Below, piece by piece: positions 50,056 through 58,476 of a DNA stretch of 64,000 nucleotides (position 1 is its first letter; the number at the start of each line of letters is the position of its first letter). Location of the stretch: contig CAMDEA010000021.1 of the NCBI GenBank assembly GCA_945893045.1, positions 1-64,000 on the forward strand, written 5' to 3'. Source of the DNA: Planctomyces sp. SH-PL62 (GTDB lineage Bacteria > Planctomycetota > Planctomycetia > Planctomycetales > Planctomycetaceae). The position numbers and the translations under genes are program-made. The notes below the pieces were generated by a model. The model saw nothing but the letters and a program-made list of their open reading frames with translations, made no database searches and had not been told where the DNA came from.

Positions 50056-51465
50056 ATGGCGATACCGCGATTCCTGACGCTTCTGATTCTCGGCGGAATA
50101 CTCACGCTGCTCTCCGGCTGTGGCGGCGAGCGACTGACTCCGGCGGCGCTGGCCGCGCGGAAGGCTTTGCAGTTTGAACGGCCGCAGAATGCCCTCGACA
50201 AACTGTCGGAAGGCGCGGGCGATCAATCCGTCGAAGGGCATTACTTGCGAGCCTGCGCGCTGGAACAACTGGAACGCCTCACGGCCGCGAAAGCCGAGGC
50301 GGATTTAGCCATTGCCGCCGCGCCGAAGAATCCCAAGTACAAAGGCTATGCGCTGCGGTTGAAGTTGTTTGACGCCGACGAGTCGGCCATCGAACCGCTG
50401 CTGCAATTGCACGACGAGAATCCCTCTTCGGCGGCGGTCTCGCTGTATTCCATCTTCGCCTTCCAGGCCAAGCACGTGAAGCAGCGATCCGAGGGCAAGC
50501 TGCGAGCCGCGCGCGTGCAGTTGGAAAAGGCCCAGACCAGTTTGAAGACCGCCTTGTCGCTCGCCGCCGAAATCCCCGAATGCCAGCGTGAACTGGTGGA
50601 GATGGCGATCTGGTTCGAGCAACCGGCGGATGCTCTGAAGCTGGTCGATGCGCTGCTGCGCGAAGAGCCAGACCGCGTGGAGTTGTTGCAGCAGCGCGTC
50701 CGCGTGCTGCTGTTGTCCAAGCAACCGGCCGAGACGATCTCGACGGCGGTGGCGTTGTACAAACGCAAGGAGCGCACGGAAGCCGCGGCGGTCGAATTCG
50801 CCAACGTGCTCAATCGGTTGCCTCCGTCGCCGGCGGTGATGGAGCAATACGATTCGCTCCGCACAACTTTCCCCGCGAACACGGCGATCCTGTTGCGGCA
50901 CTGCTGGTCGCTCGGCAAAGGGAGCCGCGTCGAGGAGGCTTGTCAGGAATTGGCGAAGTCCTTCGAGCAGCAAACTGAGCCGCGCCGCCGCCAGATTCTC
51001 GCTCAGTCCGCAGTGGCCATTCCCTTGGAAATGCACAACGCCGATATCGCGGCTGTGCAGTTGAAGAAATTCCGCAAAGAAATTGACAACGAGCAGATGC
51101 TGGCTTTCTTCGAGGGACAGTTGGCGGAGCAGCGTCACGACTATGCCCGGTCGGTCGAGAAAATGCAGGACGTCGTCAACGCCTATCGCACCGACAGCTC
51201 CGCCTCGTCCGAATTGGCCCGCGTGGCCTTGAACCGCATTCGCCAGATGTTGTCGGAGCAGAATCTCGCCGAACAAATCCGCAAAGCCGCCGAACTGACG
51301 CTGCGCCGCGCTGGACTCAACCGCTACGACGAAGCCAACGTCCGCGAAGAAGCCCGCTCACTGCTCAATGTGCTGGAAGCCGAAGGTGCCTCGGAGCGAA
51401 CACCACGCGAAGGCCCGGCAGTTCGCATCGACAGCAACGTGCCGACCACCGCCTCCCCAAAGTGA
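50056..51465 (+). CDS. TPR-like helical lipoprotein
   Basis: A 469-residue protein with a lipoprotein signal ending LLSGCGG at residue about 22. The rest is helical, with repeated TPR-like units such as HYLRACALEQLERLTAAKAEADLAIAAAP and PADALKLVDALLREEPDRVELL. TPR lipoproteins usually form scaffolds; the partner is unknown. It is the third gene of the DUF1559 cluster, 41 bp after the previous stop, and converges on the FkbH-type gene with only 15 bp between stops. Confidence 0.8.
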   Translation: MAIPRFLTLLILGGILTLLSGCGGERLTPAALAARKALQFERPQNALDKLSEGAGDQSVEGHYLRACALEQLERLTAAKAEADLAIAAAPKNPKYKGYALRLKLFDADESAIEPLLQLHDENPSSAAVSLYSIFAFQAKHVKQRSEGKLRAARVQLEKAQTSLKTALSLAAEIPECQRELVEMAIWFEQPADALKLVDALLREEPDRVELLQQRVRVLLLSKQPAETISTAVALYKRKERTEAAAVEFANVLNRLPPSPAVMEQYDSLRTTFPANTAILLRHCWSLGKGSRVEEACQELAKSFEQQTEPRRRQILAQSAVAIPLEMHNADIAAVQLKKFRKEIDNEQMLAFFEGQLAEQRHDYARSVEKMQDVVNAYRTDSSASSELARVALNRIRQMLSEQNLAEQIRKAAELTLRRAGLNRYDEANVREEARSLLNVLEAEGASERTPREGPAVRIDSNVPTTASPK

Positions 51466-51480
51466 CGGCAGCTTGGCCAC

Positions 51481-54435
51481 TCACGACTTGGCGAGCGTCG
51501 CGAAGCGATTTGGCGGCACGCCTGGGAAGTTCTCATCATCCGGCCTGGCGAATGCAACGTCGTTCGGGCCGATCCAGGTCACATACGGTGGCAATGGGAA
51601 GCGTTGGCTCGCGTCGAGCGTGAAGCGGCCGCCGGGTTGCTCGGTCCAGCCGCTGCGTCGCAGGCACGTCAGGACGGGTTGGTTGCGTGGTCCGGCGACG
51701 AACGGTGCGATCAGCCAGCGCCCGCCGCGCGCGGTCGTGGCCTGAACCAGACCGTGCAGCACGGCCTCTTCAACCCCGCGGCCAAGCGCCCGGCAACTCA
51801 TCAGCAGCGTGTCGACTTCCACCTGGTCGGGTCGCGATTCGTCCACAATCAGGATGGCGACGCCAACCACACCGTAATCGCCAAACTTGTCGGACGCTTC
51901 GACGACATAGATCGTGTGGTGCCCGCCCAAGGCCTGGATTTCGGTGAGGTCACGGCGGCGAAGCGAGAGGTGGAATTGGCTGGTCTTTTGTGTCAGTTGA
52001 GCCACGCGCGGCAAATCGGCGGGGCCCGCCTCACGCATGCGCACGCGGATTTGCAGCGAGTGAAGATACGAATCCAGGTCAGCGGTTGATTGGCGCTCGT
52101 GTTGCCGCTGTTGTTCCTGCCGGAACATGACCGAGCGGAGCCGGTCTTCGTCGGTGACGCGTGGGGTGTCAAACCGCCACAGTTGTGACAACGTCTGGCA
52201 GTACAAGACGGGATCGGCGGGGAGTGGCAGGACGGTGACCTGCGGCGCGTGCTGGCCAACTTCGAGACGATTGGCCATGTCGTCATCGATGAACACGAAG
52301 CTGTCGAGGCCGAGTCCCAATTCGGCCGCCAGCTCGCGCAGGTTTTCGGATTTCGGCCGCCAATTGATGCGTGCGGCGGCGATATCTTCGCGACGGAGCA
52401 ACATGCCGGGATGTTCGTCCAGAACGCGGAAAACGTCTTCCTCGGCGTTGCGGCTGACGAGCACGAGGAGCACACCGCGTTGTTTGAGTTGCAGGATTTG
52501 CTGCTGGAAGAGTTGGAAGCTTCGACCCGCATGATCGGGTCCAACCTGGATTCCGTCGTGACCGTCCTCGGCCAGTACGCCGCCCCACAGGATTCCATCG
52601 GCATCGAGAGCCAGCACCTTGGCCGGAGGTATCCGGCGGCGGCGCACGAGCCGGGCGAGCGCGATGCCGAGTTCCTGAAAAACCTTCGGCGAGTACGGCG
52701 AGCGGGCGACGACTTCGAGGTCGGCTCGGCTGGCGGCGGCGGTGCCAATCTGTTCGACCACGGCCGCGAAATCCACGATTTCCACGCCGTCGATTTCGGA
52801 CAGTCGCTGACGCCACCGCGCCCGCAAGGTTTCGACGGCGGCTCGGTCGGCCGTGGTGAACTGCGAGACCAGCGGCGGCAGCGTGGCCACGACGAGCGTA
52901 GCCTTCGCGTCGCGGGCGAATCGCTCGATGGCATCCAGCAACATGTCCGCCGCGCCCGCGCCGTCCGCACTCAGGTTGTCCGGCAAGTCTTCCGGACGTG
53001 CCAACACGACGTTGAGCCCGGTCGTGTTCTGACGAAACAAACTGTCCGAGCCGAGCAATTCCTGCGGCACTTGGTTGTATCCCGCAAACTCGACGCGCAC
53101 CGCAACGCCGAACGCCGCACTCCACAGCTTGAGCGACGAGGCCACCGGTTCAGCGGTGAATGTCGCGGCGATGACGATCGGCAGCGGGTCGTGCGCGTCC
53201 GCGTCAGATGTGCTGGAAGCGTCGCGCAGGGCCAGTCCACGCGTCACCGTTTCGTGATCGAGCAACGGCAGCAACTCGGGGTCGGCGGGCAGTTCGATCG
53301 CGTTTTCCCGCCGTTCCGATCCGGCTGTGGCCGCCGCATCCGAAGAGTTGCGGGGGGCCGCTCGCCCGGACTGCACCACCTGCCGCAGATCGCACATCGA
53401 CCGCAAGCGAAAACTTTCGGCGGCCGAGAGCGTGATGCCAAACCGGTCATGCAACCCGGCGGCGATGCTGAGTTGAGCGAGCGAATCCCAAGCTGCACAG
53501 TCGGCCGTGGACAGCGTCGGCGTGATCTCTGCGAGCGGCCGATCCAACGCCTGCGCCACGACCTCGCGCAACATTTGCTCGTGCGTTCCGAGGTCCGCCG
53601 GTTCGACGTCGCGCCGCGGCACGTCGCCGCGATTCGACGGCTGATCGCTGGAGTCCCTGCCGCGCGCGTCACCGGACTCCCGCCGCCGCAGGAATCGAGC
53701 CGGATTGCCACCCCAAACCTCACCCGCGCCAATCGTCGTGAACGGTGTGACATAGCTCATCGGTTCCACGATCACATCGGCTCCGATCCGCACCCCCAGG
53801 TCGATCCGAGTTTCACCGCCGATGACCACTCGCGGGCCGATCACGACGGGGGCGGTGACATACGATTTCGTGCCGTCCAGATTCGCCGTGATACTGTGCG
53901 CCGTCACCGTGCTGCCGGCACCGAGAATGGTTCCGTCCCCAATTTCGGTGAGATCGGCGTCATACAGCCGGCCTAACAGCAGGGTGCGTAGGCCAATCTG
54001 AGTTCTCGTCGCCGTCGCCCATAGCACCAGATGCCGCGGCCCCTCCAAACACATGTACGACCGCGTCAGCGGCAAATGCCACACGATCCGCTCGCGAAGG
54101 TAGCGCATAATCATTAAACGAAAACGAACATTGTCACGGACTCGGGCGGAGGTCGTCATGCGGCGGTGTTTGCGAAAGCCGAACAAAATCGGTGACAGCC
54201 GCGTCTCGAGGGCGCTCGCGATCAAAAATAAATTCAGCCAACTGACATAAATCAACGGCGCAAACACGAGCCAGTGCTTCCACGTCCAAGTCTCGGACAA
54301 CCCCAACCCGTCAATGACAACTTGCATGAGGATGGCCAGCACGACCGCGGCCAACGTGGGGGACAGGCAGAACAACACCGCTCCCACGATCGAAAACATC
54401 AACGCTCGCATTCCGTAAAGAATTACTCCGCGCAT
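51481..54435 (-). CDS. Membrane-anchored LbH transferase-ACP-FkbH-GNAT multidomain protein
   Basis: A 984-residue protein (TTG 54459 would add eight). Residues about 10-70 contain two hydrophobic segments. Residues about 130-250 form a left-handed beta-helix (hexapeptide) acyltransferase (IGDGTILGAGSTVTAHSI, VIGPRVVIGG, GGNPARFL) like the terminal part of Pls-type synthetases. At about 290-360 an acyl carrier domain has WDSLAQLS with the phosphopantetheine serine. Residues about 420-750 are FkbH-like, with HAD motif LALDADGILWGGVLAEDG, LVSRNAEED and VFIDDD. A GNAT-like C-terminus follows. FkbH proteins load glyceryl units from 1,3-bisphosphoglycerate onto an ACP. No PKS or NRPS gene is nearby. 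Confidence 0.85.
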   Translation of the reverse strand: MRGVILYGMRALMFSIVGAVLFCLSPTLAAVVLAILMQVVIDGLGLSETWTWKHWLVFAPLIYVSWLNLFLIASALETRLSPILFGFRKHRRMTTSARVRDNVRFRLMIMRYLRERIVWHLPLTRSYMCLEGPRHLVLWATATRTQIGLRTLLLGRLYDADLTEIGDGTILGAGSTVTAHSITANLDGTKSYVTAPVVIGPRVVIGGETRIDLGVRIGADVIVEPMSYVTPFTTIGAGEVWGGNPARFLRRRESGDARGRDSSDQPSNRGDVPRRDVEPADLGTHEQMLREVVAQALDRPLAEITPTLSTADCAAWDSLAQLSIAAGLHDRFGITLSAAESFRLRSMCDLRQVVQSGRAAPRNSSDAAATAGSERRENAIELPADPELLPLLDHETVTRGLALRDASSTSDADAHDPLPIVIAATFTAEPVASSLKLWSAAFGVAVRVEFAGYNQVPQELLGSDSLFRQNTTGLNVVLARPEDLPDNLSADGAGAADMLLDAIERFARDAKATLVVATLPPLVSQFTTADRAAVETLRARWRQRLSEIDGVEIVDFAAVVEQIGTAAASRADLEVVARSPYSPKVFQELGIALARLVRRRRIPPAKVLALDADGILWGGVLAEDGHDGIQVGPDHAGRSFQLFQQQILQLKQRGVLLVLVSRNAEEDVFRVLDEHPGMLLRREDIAAARINWRPKSENLRELAAELGLGLDSFVFIDDDMANRLEVGQHAPQVTVLPLPADPVLYCQTLSQLWRFDTPRVTDEDRLRSVMFRQEQQRQHERQSTADLDSYLHSLQIRVRMREAGPADLPRVAQLTQKTSQFHLSLRRRDLTEIQALGGHHTIYVVEASDKFGDYGVVGVAILIVDESRPDQVEVDTLLMSCRALGRGVEEAVLHGLVQATTARGGRWLIAPFVAGPRNQPVLTCLRRSGWTEQPGGRFTLDASQRFPLPPYVTWIGPNDVAFARPDDENFPGVPPNRFATLAKS

Positions 54436-54519
54436 ACGACGTCCATTTCTTGATACCAACGGAGCGCGAAGATTCTGACGCAGTTGAGCTGAGATGAGTT
54501 CTCGTTCAGATCAGCGCTG

Positions 54520-57500
54520 TCAGGCCGCGTGTTGCGGAATGCTCCTGCCTCCGCGTTTCGGCAGGCAGCCGATGCCGATGATGACCAGTTGGCTGAACGC
54601 GAACAGCCCCAGGGCCAGCAGCACGCCTTCGGTGAAGCCGTAGCTGTGCAGGCCGACGCCGAGTTCATTCACGCCGAACCACGACCAGCCGGTGAAGATG
54701 TTGCCGGCGATGGCCAGCACGGCCATGCCGCGTCCGCTGACCATGCCGCCCCAGCGCGCGTGCAGGACCACGGCATTCCACAACACGATGATCAGCGCCC
54801 CGTTCTCTTTCGGATCCCAGCCCCAGAAGCGGCCCCAACTATCGTCGGCCCATAAGCCGCCCAGCACCGTCCCCACAAAGCTGAAGAAGATGCCGAAGCA
54901 CAGCGTCCCGTAAATCATTCGCGACAAGTTCTTCTCCAACTCGGGAGTCAGCGGTTCGGCGTCGCGATATTCCGACTGCATGTAGGCCCACGCGGTCGCG
55001 CCCACACCGAACATACCGCCGATGATGCCGAGCAATTTCACCGTCCCGGCCGAGATGCTGATTTCGGCCAGTGTCTCGATCATCTCGGCGATCGGGCTGG
55101 GAAGCTGATAGCAGACGACGGCGAGCAACGCCGACATCGCGAACGCGAACGGCAGCGGCTTGCGGAGGGCGACATACATCAGCCCCAGCATTCCCGACAG
55201 GAAGGTCATCGCATAGCCCATGTTGATCGTGGTGACATGCGTCGCCAGCCAGAACTGAGTGTCGAGCACCGCGACCAGCACTTTGAATGTGTCGCCATCG
55301 CCGCTCAGGAAGTGAGCGATCAACAGCGTTGCGAAACCAGCGCCGGACGCGACCACGTTGCCGATCCCGATCTTGTAGACCTTCTCCAGCACCAGCCCCA
55401 GCGCCACGATGCCCCAGCCGATGAACACCGCCGTCGTATACAAGTTCGTCACCGGCGGCCGGCCGGAAATGATGATGCGGGAAATCAAGGCGAGCGTGTG
55501 CAGACCGAACGTGAAGAGACAAATCCCAAACACCGTCCGGTTCAACGTGCGCGTCCAGCCAAGCATCGCCGCGAACGCCAGCAACAGCCCCAGGAAGTAG
55601 ATCATCGACGCCAGCAGGAACGGCTGAAACGAGTTGAAGGACCACTCGAAGCCGATGCGGCTCATCCCCACGCCATCGAACGATTCGCTCTTCAACGAAT
55701 CGCGATAACCAGCCACCGCGCCGTTGAAGCCCGACACGTTGCCGGATTCATAGTCGGTCAGAAGCGTTCGCCAGGCGGCCACGGCCGGAGCGGCTTTGCG
55801 AGCACCTCCCTTCGTCAGCGCGTCCTCGTCCTTCAAATCCATCTTCTCGACGTCGGGATAACGTCGCTTCAGCCAGTTTCGAGACTCGGTGAGCTGCGCG
55901 TTCTCGTCCATGGAAAGCCGCTGGTCTTCGTCCGCGAGGACTTCGCCGATCTGAGTCATCGCGAATTTGATGATCAGGCGATGATCCGGCTGATCGTCGA
56001 GCGGTTGCATCAGTTCGGCCAACGTGAGGAAGTCCCAGTAGTCGTTGGTGCCGCTGGCCGGCGGCACGACACGTGCGAGTTTGGTTTCGCGCAGCGCCGC
56101 TTCAAAGCCGACCGCTCGCTGAAGGCGTTCCATCGGCGCGCGAGCCTCGATCTCCGGCTGCTCGGCAAAGCGCGACAGCGTTTCGTACAAGCCGAACTTG
56201 CGCTCGAACTCGATCGCCTTGCGATCTTCGACGCTCATGTTGCGAGCACCCTTCTTGCGAGCTTCATCGGTCTTCTGACCAAGCTTCACCAGCCGCCGAT
56301 CACGGGGCATTTTGTCCTTCTCGTCCGGCTGCTCGACGATTTCCGCCATCGAGTACCGATAGCCTTTGCGCGGCTCCAGATTCAGCGCCTTGAGCACTTC
56401 CAGATTCTCGATGCGGATCACCTTGTGATGCTTGGCCTCATTCGGCCGAGCGAACAAATCCATCAACCAGCGAATCGCCGGCTCGGTGCGAGTCTTGGTC
56501 TTGCCGTCTTCCTGGTATTCAAGCTTGAACGTCTCGGTGCCGGAGATGATCCGCAACAAGTTGCGGGCATACGTGTCGAGCGGCTTCACCCGGCCATCCG
56601 CGACGATGGGCAAGTGCCCGACTGCCGCATAGTCAAAAGCCTTCTCTGGAGTCGCCGGTGTCTTCGTCTTGCTGACGACCCACAACGCCAGGAACGCAAC
56701 CGTCACGATGGGCACCCAGCGGGCCGCTCCATCGACGGTGGTTTGCTGGACAACTTTGATCTCGCGGGCGCGGCGATCCAGGAACCGCAGCAGCGTCACC
56801 GAAAACTGAAACAACATGCCGACCGCCACGATCATGCATGCCACATACGGAATCATCCAGCCGCTGTTCGTGACGACTTGCAGCGTCGAGTATTCCTTGG
56901 CACCCGCCTGCGTGTAGCCGCTCTGATAGAAGGTCTCGCCGGCATATCGCAGCGGATTGTTCATCCAGACGTGATGCTCGAAAACCGATGGCTCTCCGCC
57001 GGCATTCAGATGCGAGTAATCCGTCACACGAATGTCCGAGGAGTAATTCCGAGCGGTACTCGTGCCGACGTAATTCGTACCATCCACGTCAATCAGTTCA
57101 ATCGTGTAAGGCTTGTAGTCGCGGCGGAATCGCAGCGAGAGATCGTACTTCTTGCCATCAAACTCCACGGCCTCGGATCGGTCCTGCATCGCAAGCAGCA
57201 CGGCGGTCAGATAGGTGCCGATCTCTTCGCCGCTGCCACGCTTCGTCAGACGGACGATGGCACCCGGCATGTCCACCTTGGTGTCGGTATCGACGCCGGT
57301 CGAACCACCCACGGGGACCAACGCATTCGTCTTGCCGATGCCGTGCGTCGCCTCAATCTGGTGTTCTTCCGTCGGCGGCCGGACGCGCGCGTTGCCGTAA
57401 TACTTCAGCACCTCGATGTCGAACGGCAGCAGTTCATTCGTGATCTTGCCCTTACCGACGCTGCTTTTCAGTCGCGAGCCTTGTACCACGACATGCGTTT

Positions 57501-58476
57501 CGGAATCCGTACCGGCCGACTCGACAAACGCCAGTTCGCTCGACCGGTGATCGCTGGCGAAGTTTGATGTCTGCCCTTCCTCCAACGAAATCTGAGCCTC
57601 GACCGCCGTCAGGCCGACCAGCAGTTCGCTGAGCATCATCAGTCCGATGCCGCCATGCAGCAGCACGATGCCCGCTCGCTTCTTGAAGACCATCACGCAG
57701 CCGATCAGCATCACAACGCCGGCGAACGTCGCTTTCAACAATTGCCACAGGATGCGCATCGACGAATCGTCCAGCCGAGCCGCATCCCCTTTCATCCACA
57801 ACCCGGCGACGATCAGACCCAGTGCCACGCAGAGAATGTCTGCCGCCCAGAACTTCGTCTTGGCGAGCGCATCACCGGGACGGAACCGCGATAACTGGAT
57901 GGCACCATAGACCGATCCGCCCCACAGCGCCGTCAGGCCCAGCTTGAAGAACGACCACAAAGTCTCCCACTTGACCCAGCTTTTGCCTTGTAAGCCGTCC
58001 GCACTCGAACCGCTCACCACGACCAGCCACGTCGTCAGCATCCCCAATCCGATGACTCCGACGCCGGCCCACAACTGAGTTCCCTTCGCTTGGGCTTTGA
58101 ATCGGATGCCGTGAGCCGCCACCAGATTCAAAAACATCAACGTGCCAAGCAGCCGGCCGCCGGGAAATGGAATGACCATCCAGGCCGGCAAGTCCGGCTG
58201 ATGATCGAACACAAAATTCGGAAAGAACGCGGGCGGAAAAAACACTTGCAGATCAATCCACGCGATCTGACAGCGAAAGTATTCATCGACGACCTGCCAG
58301 ATGTCCTTATCGACTTGAGCCAGCGTTCCCGCCATCACCAGCACGACCGCCATCGCCAACAGCGAGACCGTCAGCTTCAACGAGGCCAACGGCCGTAAGA
58401 GTTTTGCAACCATCGGACCCACCGAGATGTCCGAGTCTGATCCGACACGTTCATTGAGGATGTCTGCTGTCGCCAT
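54520..58476 (-). CDS. Cytochrome c biogenesis CcsBA (ResB-ResC fusion)
   Basis: A 1318-residue membrane protein of system II cytochrome c maturation, which exports haem and attaches it to CxxCH motifs. The ResB/CcsB part begins near residue 30 (LASLKLTVSLLAMAVVLVMAGTLAQ) with further helices near 140-260 and a large periplasmic loop. The CcsA part occupies the C-terminal third with WGWDPKENGALI, the haem-handling WWD motif region. The central soluble stretch (about 650-960) is long and charged compared with other CcsBA proteins. ATG 58476 follows AGAGGAG. The large c-type cytochrome gene at 60814 is a likely client. Confidence 0.92.
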   Translation of the reverse strand: MATADILNERVGSDSDISVGPMVAKLLRPLASLKLTVSLLAMAVVLVMAGTLAQVDKDIWQVVDEYFRCQIAWIDLQVFFPPAFFPNFVFDHQPDLPAWMVIPFPGGRLLGTLMFLNLVAAHGIRFKAQAKGTQLWAGVGVIGLGMLTTWLVVVSGSSADGLQGKSWVKWETLWSFFKLGLTALWGGSVYGAIQLSRFRPGDALAKTKFWAADILCVALGLIVAGLWMKGDAARLDDSSMRILWQLLKATFAGVVMLIGCVMVFKKRAGIVLLHGGIGLMMLSELLVGLTAVEAQISLEEGQTSNFASDHRSSELAFVESAGTDSETHVVVQGSRLKSSVGKGKITNELLPFDIEVLKYYGNARVRPPTEEHQIEATHGIGKTNALVPVGGSTGVDTDTKVDMPGAIVRLTKRGSGEEIGTYLTAVLLAMQDRSEAVEFDGKKYDLSLRFRRDYKPYTIELIDVDGTNYVGTSTARNYSSDIRVTDYSHLNAGGEPSVFEHHVWMNNPLRYAGETFYQSGYTQAGAKEYSTLQVVTNSGWMIPYVACMIVAVGMLFQFSVTLLRFLDRRAREIKVVQQTTVDGAARWVPIVTVAFLALWVVSKTKTPATPEKAFDYAAVGHLPIVADGRVKPLDTYARNLLRIISGTETFKLEYQEDGKTKTRTEPAIRWLMDLFARPNEAKHHKVIRIENLEVLKALNLEPRKGYRYSMAEIVEQPDEKDKMPRDRRLVKLGQKTDEARKKGARNMSVEDRKAIEFERKFGLYETLSRFAEQPEIEARAPMERLQRAVGFEAALRETKLARVVPPASGTNDYWDFLTLAELMQPLDDQPDHRLIIKFAMTQIGEVLADEDQRLSMDENAQLTESRNWLKRRYPDVEKMDLKDEDALTKGGARKAAPAVAAWRTLLTDYESGNVSGFNGAVAGYRDSLKSESFDGVGMSRIGFEWSFNSFQPFLLASMIYFLGLLLAFAAMLGWTRTLNRTVFGICLFTFGLHTLALISRIIISGRPPVTNLYTTAVFIGWGIVALGLVLEKVYKIGIGNVVASGAGFATLLIAHFLSGDGDTFKVLVAVLDTQFWLATHVTTINMGYAMTFLSGMLGLMYVALRKPLPFAFAMSALLAVVCYQLPSPIAEMIETLAEISISAGTVKLLGIIGGMFGVGATAWAYMQSEYRDAEPLTPELEKNLSRMIYGTLCFGIFFSFVGTVLGGLWADDSWGRFWGWDPKENGALIIVLWNAVVLHARWGGMVSGRGMAVLAIAGNIFTGWSWFGVNELGVGLHSYGFTEGVLLALGLFAFSQLVIIGIGCLPKRGGRSIPQHAA

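Follow-up and report, generated by a model that had tools for sequence, protein, structure and literature searches.

A planctomycete membrane protein joining beta-helix, acyl carrier and FkbH domains as a candidate glyceryl transferase with its own donor supply

Within a 64,000-nucleotide stretch of contig CAMDEA010000021.1 from Planctomyces sp. SH-PL62 (assembly GCA_945893045.1, positions 1 to 64,000; hereafter the window), one gene (51481..54459, reverse strand, as are all features of the protein given below) encodes a 992 amino acid (aa) fusion of paired transmembrane (TM) helices, a left-handed beta-helix (LbH) acyltransferase domain, an acyl carrier protein (ACP) domain and an FkbH part. 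Based on domain homology and predicted structures, we propose, with a probability of roughly 0.6, that this protein is a membrane-anchored glyceryl transferase with its own donor supply, i.e., it would load its own ACP and its LbH domain would pass the glyceryl to a membrane acceptor. Sequence comparisons indicate that it belongs to a distinct enzyme family with a patchy distribution and with active sites that are intact; the parts are known, while their combination is new to the literature covered. That is, no report of the TM-LbH-ACP-FkbH architecture was found in the literature on FkbH, glycolicacyl and poly-lysine synthetase systems, among the matches listed, and no paper was found that joins FkbH, acyl carrier protein and Planctomycetes. 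The gene rests on one open reading frame and on homologues (including L044, L045 and L053; L, G and C numbers denote loci, genomes and contigs, respectively), and its start may equally be the TTG at 54459 or an in-frame ATG at 54435 (984 aa), the latter being the end of the single frame 51481..54435 of a preliminary description of this DNA, which is real. The order of domains given in that description (TM, LbH, ACP, FkbH-HAD, GNAT-like) was borne out by hidden Markov model (HMM) scores and predicted structures, and the motifs it quoted (WDSLAQLS, LVSRNAEED and VFIDDD) are present in the frame.

The FkbH part matches TIGR01686 (FkbH; aa 613-938) with 272.7 bits, 126 bits above the cut-off of 146.65, and TIGR01681 (HAD-IIIC) with 51.7 bits (cut-off 35.75). 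It comprises an SGNH-like N-terminal domain assigned by structural match (aa 423-610; 52630..53193), the HAD domain (aa 613-763, structural match to 763/778; 52171..52623) and a GNAT-like domain (aa about 803-952; 51604..52053). The last of these had no Pfam match and was assigned by structure and TIGR01686 coverage; the VIA-align list of structure matches was filled by this GNAT domain and barely probes the other parts. HMM searches recovered the hexapeptide, FkbH (TIGR01686) and ACP (PF00550, with the N-terminal half, or N-half, alone) domains proposed earlier, and the GNAT domain was not found by Pfam. Among 14 fusions, residues D619, D621, S669, K703, D725 and D726 of the HAD domain are invariant (14/14), as is Cys889 in the motif SCRALGR (51793..51795), a candidate acyl-thioester cysteine; these counts, and those for the N-half below, refer to an alignment of 14 fusions plus two N-halves, with a further fusion (L165) being present in our trees but outside the residue counts. 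In line with studies of HAD/FkbH enzymes, we take the HAD residues to be catalytic and the Cys889-type cysteine to bear the acyl group, and the alignment indicates that the expected catalytic positions are intact. The SCR-motif cysteine also occurs in L056, L059, L062, L066-L069 and L073, and was absent from the other FkbH frames in a motif scan.

The HAD loop had been described as unusual (DADGI), and it does differ from DLDNT; however, this is a trait of the group (DxDG in 11/14 fusions and DxDN in 3/14) and both aspartates are present. A dead HAD loop was therefore rejected, DxD being present in 14/14. The threonine of motif I is replaced by Ile or Val in 11/14 fusions, which would favor another acyl, i.e., a different C3 or C2 unit (e.g., lactyl), or a HAD half that is a plain phosphatase, and two N-half relatives seemingly use another loader (below). 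We consider such alternatives very unlikely, since the DxD, S669, K703, DD and Cys889 positions are all retained and the fusions group with the FkbH domains of large frames rather than with distant FkbH-like proteins.

The N-half begins with paired TM helices (aa 4-93; 54181..54450), evident as hydrophobic stretches at aa 11-57 and 62-84 and as model helices 4-51 and 60-93. The LbH domain (aa 150-262; 53674..54012) was identified by Pfam (Hexapep PF00132, E 6.3e-8), a TIGR02353 match below cut-off, Foldseek and hhalign, and the predicted structure places the beta-helix at about 150-245 and the ACP helices at 287-363. Its model is closest to maltose O-acetyltransferases and the AntD N-acyltransferase (Foldseek), with which it shares the LbH fold and the position of His188 (53896..53898); this candidate catalytic base aligns with the known LbH histidine, namely that of the THP motif in maltose transacetylase 2ic7, which we take to act as the base in LbH acyltransferases. 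These enzymes are soluble and use CoA donors; unlike them, the fusion has an attached ACP and TM helices. The ACP domain (aa 287-363; 53371..53601), which appears as helices in the models, reaches 21.6 bits for PF00550 when the N-half is searched alone (cut-off 20.8), and 14/16 members of the N-half alignment have a PF00550 match at E<=0.01. Ser326 of its WDS motif (53482..53484) is the expected phosphopantetheine site, and both His188 and W324-D325-S326 are invariant in 16/16. The genome of the window (G000; 7.83 Mb, 251 contigs, 89% complete) has a phosphopantetheinyl transferase match, PF01648, in one 136-aa frame. Modelled alone, the N-half has a predicted local distance difference test (pLDDT) score of 76.

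The reaction that we envisage for the glyceryl transferase would consist of three steps. By analogy to FkbH enzymology, the HAD/GNAT part would take D-1,3-bisphosphoglycerate, dephosphorylate it and hold a glyceryl thioester, probably on Cys889. The built-in ACP would then receive the glyceryl on its phosphopantetheine arm at Ser326. Finally, by homology to LbH and Pls proteins, the LbH domain would transfer the glyceryl to a hydroxyl or amine of the acceptor at the membrane face, with His188 as the base. Known FkbH glyceryl transferase/phosphatases (e.g., Mad7/Mad14, vioprolide FkbH and OzmB) are among the closest systems and share with the fusion the HAD-IIIC plus GNAT unit, an SGNH-like N-terminal domain, intact catalytic positions and a neighboring carrier. 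Unlike known FkbH proteins, however, the FkbH part here is fused behind TM-LbH-ACP in one membrane protein, forms its own clade, and has no polyketide synthase (PKS) or nonribosomal peptide synthetase (NRPS) match on its contig. The window gene thus lies outside the usual setting of FkbH in a PKS/NRPS assembly line, which is not a strict requirement.

The beta-helix had been likened to the terminal domain of Pls-type synthetases, and profile comparison supports this likeness and narrows it to the third repeat. Specifically, hhalign of the N-half profile against the third TM-LbH repeat of the Pls-type synthetase L082 (658 bits for TIGR02353) gave 99.15% (E 3.7e-19, 33% identity), compared to 92.4% and 3.2% for the first and second repeats, respectively, with repeat boundaries cut by hand into rough thirds. 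The alignment places His188 on the histidine of the CHS motif in the third repeat; this motif is found a single time in each of L082 and L087. According to the available text of PMC10522769, the terminal domain of PosA is modelled as three TM-LbH repeats with approximate three-fold symmetry, no experimental structure of the Pls polymerisation fold exists, and Pls/PosA polymerise a unit bearing its own nucleophile; the TM-LbH layout of the fusion agrees with the description of the third repeat in the same source. The shared elements are the TM pair, helices and LbH repeat, the aligned histidine, a carrier domain and membrane location. Unlike Pls/PosA, the fusion has one repeat, not three (31.9 bits for TIGR02353; cut-off 423.1), its carrier lies behind the LbH, and FkbH replaces the adenylation domain; no AMP-binding family was found among its Pfam matches or among the NCBIfam matches listed. 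Given one repeat versus three, the fusion probably works as a homotrimer. TM-LbH proteins that stand alone and lack an ACP also exist (L079:9698-10426, L080:9767-10423 and L091:9659-10336), and L079 and L080 score 58 and 63 bits against the Pls terminal domain model, far under its cut-off.

The resemblance to Pls raises the question of whether the fusion polymerises its own product, i.e., whether it is a Pls-like homopolymer synthase in which FkbH stands in for adenylation and glyceryl-ACP units are linked through the hydroxyls that they bear, yielding an oligo- or polyglycerate ester. The match of TM-LbH to a single repeat of the polymerisation domain in Pls, histidine included, is consistent with this idea, and so is the fact that glyceryl has two hydroxyls, a parallel to the nucleophile-bearing units of Pls/PosA. 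However, there is a single repeat, the carrier is behind rather than before the LbH, and the sulfotransferase and MMPL neighbors of some relatives (below) would suit a small lipid equally well. To our knowledge, there is no natural polyglycerate, and we regard polymer synthesis as quite unlikely. A broader scheme, improbable as well in our estimation, would view the family as a Pls-type membrane polymerase in which the loading of hydroxyacyl units derived from sugar phosphates replaced amino-acid activation, homotrimers yielding oligo-/polyglycerate esters or glyceryl-capped lipids from glycolysis without adenylation, and the transketolase-like E1/E2 loader of the relatives described below running on glycolyl.

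In total, 15 distinct fusions were found in Planctomycetota, Verrucomicrobiota and Cyanobacteriota: that of the window, L165, and 13 from a scan of named genomes (151 relatives, 80 of which were retained), which relied on two exact peptide patterns and hence undercounts. The scan fusions come from eight Cyanobacteriota (with hosts in Scytonema, Nostoc, Anabaena, Tolypothrix, Calothrix and Moorena), two Verrucomicrobiota, two Planctomycetota and one genome labelled just "bacterium". Among 59 relatives of the host (G000 included), four have the full fusion and one an N-half; the contig of L031 (G006, same genus) is identical to that of L044, which belongs to a named Planctomyces metagenome-assembled genome. 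Of 392 genomes from across the phylum, each with two candidates scored, 23 had an FkbH match (E<=1e-60), and G000 alone had a match over the full length. The N-half profile (E<=1e-20) matched 7/170 genomes of the order and 5/397 of the class (six candidates scored per genome).

Phylogenetic analysis of FkbH domains (63 found after removal of 26 duplicate or short loci before the HMM search, 54 of them in the tree and L011-L014, L070, L072, L074, L076 and L077 outside it) recovered the 15 fusions as one clade with 100/100 support, corresponding to one change, with 0/500 shuffles as low. A 98/99 node unites this clade with 13 FkbH domains, all in frames of more than 1000 codons; among these, L034 carries ACP and thioesterase domains and L035 aligns with a ketosynthase (KS) region. 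Both are large planctomycete proteins with FkbH (L034:5771-9079 and L035:8815-18660) near glycosyltransferase-like genes, perhaps glycan or glycolipid clusters. In the N-half tree (three outgroup rows hand-chosen; L166 cut by its contig end), the N-halves nest among the fusions (89/86), as they would had they lost FkbH from a fusion, but a fusions-only clade was not rejected by the approximately unbiased (AU) test (p 0.124). A second, distant FkbH type is found in the same genus and family (L041:337-2922 in G007, L157:320-2059 in G006 and L039:1335-3303 in G017). The L041 representative lies beside a VOC/glyoxalase gene and a small gene encoding a separate ACP (20.4 bits, with a cut-off of 20.8). 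By reading of the sequence, an ACP-like small gene is also present in L039.

The fusion gene was gained or lost as a single unit between sister species. In the sister species G008 (94% complete), which had no match to the fusion protein, the site is empty and the flanking genes, with flanks 85-87% identical, directly adjoin: window positions 51423-54540 (3118 bases) correspond to 197 bases, hence the gene arrived or left as one unit. In the window, the gene is flanked upstream by a cytochrome c assembly/ResB fusion (54520-58476) and downstream by a convergent gene (50056-51465) with no Pfam family at E<=1e-4. It is the sole FkbH match within G000, and its contig (C21) had no KS or AMP-binding match, which extends to the whole contig the earlier claim that no PKS, NRPS or adenylation gene is adjacent. 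The genome carries two large type I PKS genes elsewhere, on C62 (L154:8681-16171; KS-AT-DH-ER-KR-ACP-TE) and C108 (L042:3204-10556; AMP-binding-ACP-KS-AT-MT-ACP-TE). A Condensation-type protein on C112 (27% identity to that of L032) was considered as a partner and set aside on account of its position, among genes that seem unrelated.

The main alternative to weigh against transfer by the LbH domain is that the protein makes glyceryl-ACP only, a PKS/KS or a separate condensation-type enzyme takes the unit for use as a starter, an extender or the partner in an ester, and the LbH acts elsewhere or as a scaffold. The available text of PMC7489565 and PMC8949500 describes assembly lines that use glyceryl-ACP, and the neighbors of some relatives (tblastn, E<=1e-8; several loci are short, e.g., L165 at 6.8 kb and L032 at 7.2 kb) are of the expected kind. 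That is, a KS-containing PKS is found near 2/15 fusions, adjoining L054 and about 5 kb from L071, as well as next to one of three N-half relatives (L064, which is the same as L167), and Condensation/WS-DGAT-like genes, all under Pfam cut-offs, adjoin L031 and L032. On the other hand, 13/15 fusion loci had no KS match and 15/15 no adenylation-domain match in this survey, and 7/8 cyanobacterial fusions occupy a recurring chromosomal locus without KS match, arguing against assembly-line use; at this locus the fusion follows a TPR-type gene, with hisF-like and ruvB-like genes nearby (names read by eye, TPR checked in L047 only). The invariance of His188 in 16/16 also counts against a role limited to ACP loading, and hence we consider this alternative rather unlikely. 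The view that homologues are always inside PKS clusters, which the preliminary description had named as contrary to its proposal, is rejected by the 13/15 loci without KS.

Further neighbors include sulfotransferase genes near L054 and L071 and MMPL genes near L054 and L031 (both kinds Pfam-confirmed), P450 genes near two fusions, with a further fusion having a P450 fragment nearby, and UGT genes near two. In some relatives, these neighbors suggest a lipid or polyketide carrying glycerate, with possible sulfation and export. The window locus has none of the KS, sulfotransferase, MMPL, Condensation/WS-DGAT-like, P450 or UGT neighbors. The "self-contained pathway" proposed earlier hence stands as far as the contig without PKS, NRPS or adenylation genes and the gain or loss as a single unit are concerned, but not for the relatives that lie beside KS, sulfotransferase, MMPL or Condensation/WS-DGAT-like genes. 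In a passage of PMC6520454, dysinosin DysB combines FkbH with a sulfotransferase domain and is implicated in sulfated glyceric acid; however, DysB is an NRPS megasynthase, whereas in L054 and L071 only adjacent genes point to sulfation, and none of this kind adjoins the gene of the window. Separately, MMPL, GNAT, fusion, sulfotransferase and reducing PKS genes are grouped in L054:6127-22625 (Akkermansiaceae UBA5020), perhaps an undescribed lipid cluster, the reducing PKS having a thioester-reductase-like domain where the examined stretch ends.

Two N-half relatives, L064 and L065, encode TM-LbH-ACP without FkbH and are located behind E1 and lipoyl-E2 genes, which are 57% identical between the two loci over 494 aa (E1) and 37% over 420 aa (E2). 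Both E2s are divergent and additional to the other full-length copies of the two genomes (132 and 108 bits, versus 241-275 for the latter), and curated pyruvate dehydrogenase (PDH) cut-offs are far from reached (L064 E1 204.5 versus 393.85; E2 119.3 and 87.3 versus 552.1). According to a passage of PMC6335953, a similar E1/E2 set directs C2 glycolicacyl attachment in Qnc and is proposed to do likewise for scleric acid. L064 and L065 resemble these glycolicacyl-ACP systems (QncN/L/M and SclQ1-4) in having a thiamine pyrophosphate-dependent E1, a lipoyl-E2 and a carrier, but in Qnc/Scl a free ACP from a pathway of the NRPS type acts as the carrier, whereas theirs is a TM-LbH-ACP protein and the window protein uses FkbH. 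There thus appears to be a loader swap between FkbH and E1/E2, the latter presumably for glycolyl-ACP. Both glyceryl and glycolyl are hydroxyacyl units, in keeping with an LbH transfer step that the two systems have in common. A weak point of such a swap is that domain content cannot separate glycolyl-forming E1/E2 from other E1/E2 pairs.

Several observations weigh against the proposed glyceryl transferase and the loader swap. The whole protein scores slightly under the PF00550 cut-off (19.2 versus 20.8 bits), and the full-length model is only moderate (pLDDT 70, predicted template modelling score 0.38, LbH about 55-60). There is no partner gene common to all 15 fusion loci, with Condensation/WS-DGAT-like, sulfotransferase, MMPL and KS genes at two each, and TM-LbH-ACP, found in so few genomes of the class, does not represent a core function. 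The homotrimer is proposed from the repeat count. As for the swap, the L065 E2 match crosses one TGA, the L065 E1 is truncated where its contig ends, and the genome of L065 (G031) also encodes a separate FkbH, on a different contig (L038), that could serve in trans.

Despite these points, we favor the hypothesis of a membrane-anchored glyceryl transferase that loads its own carrier. If true, a single protein would lead from an intermediate of glycolysis to a membrane product modified with glycerate, and would do so in three phyla, in most cases away from polyketide clusters. The chemistry of FkbH would also be tied to the polymerisation fold of Pls, and the one-repeat form with an FkbH or E1/E2 loader would then provide a simple system for how the Pls-type LbH handles carrier-bound acyl units.

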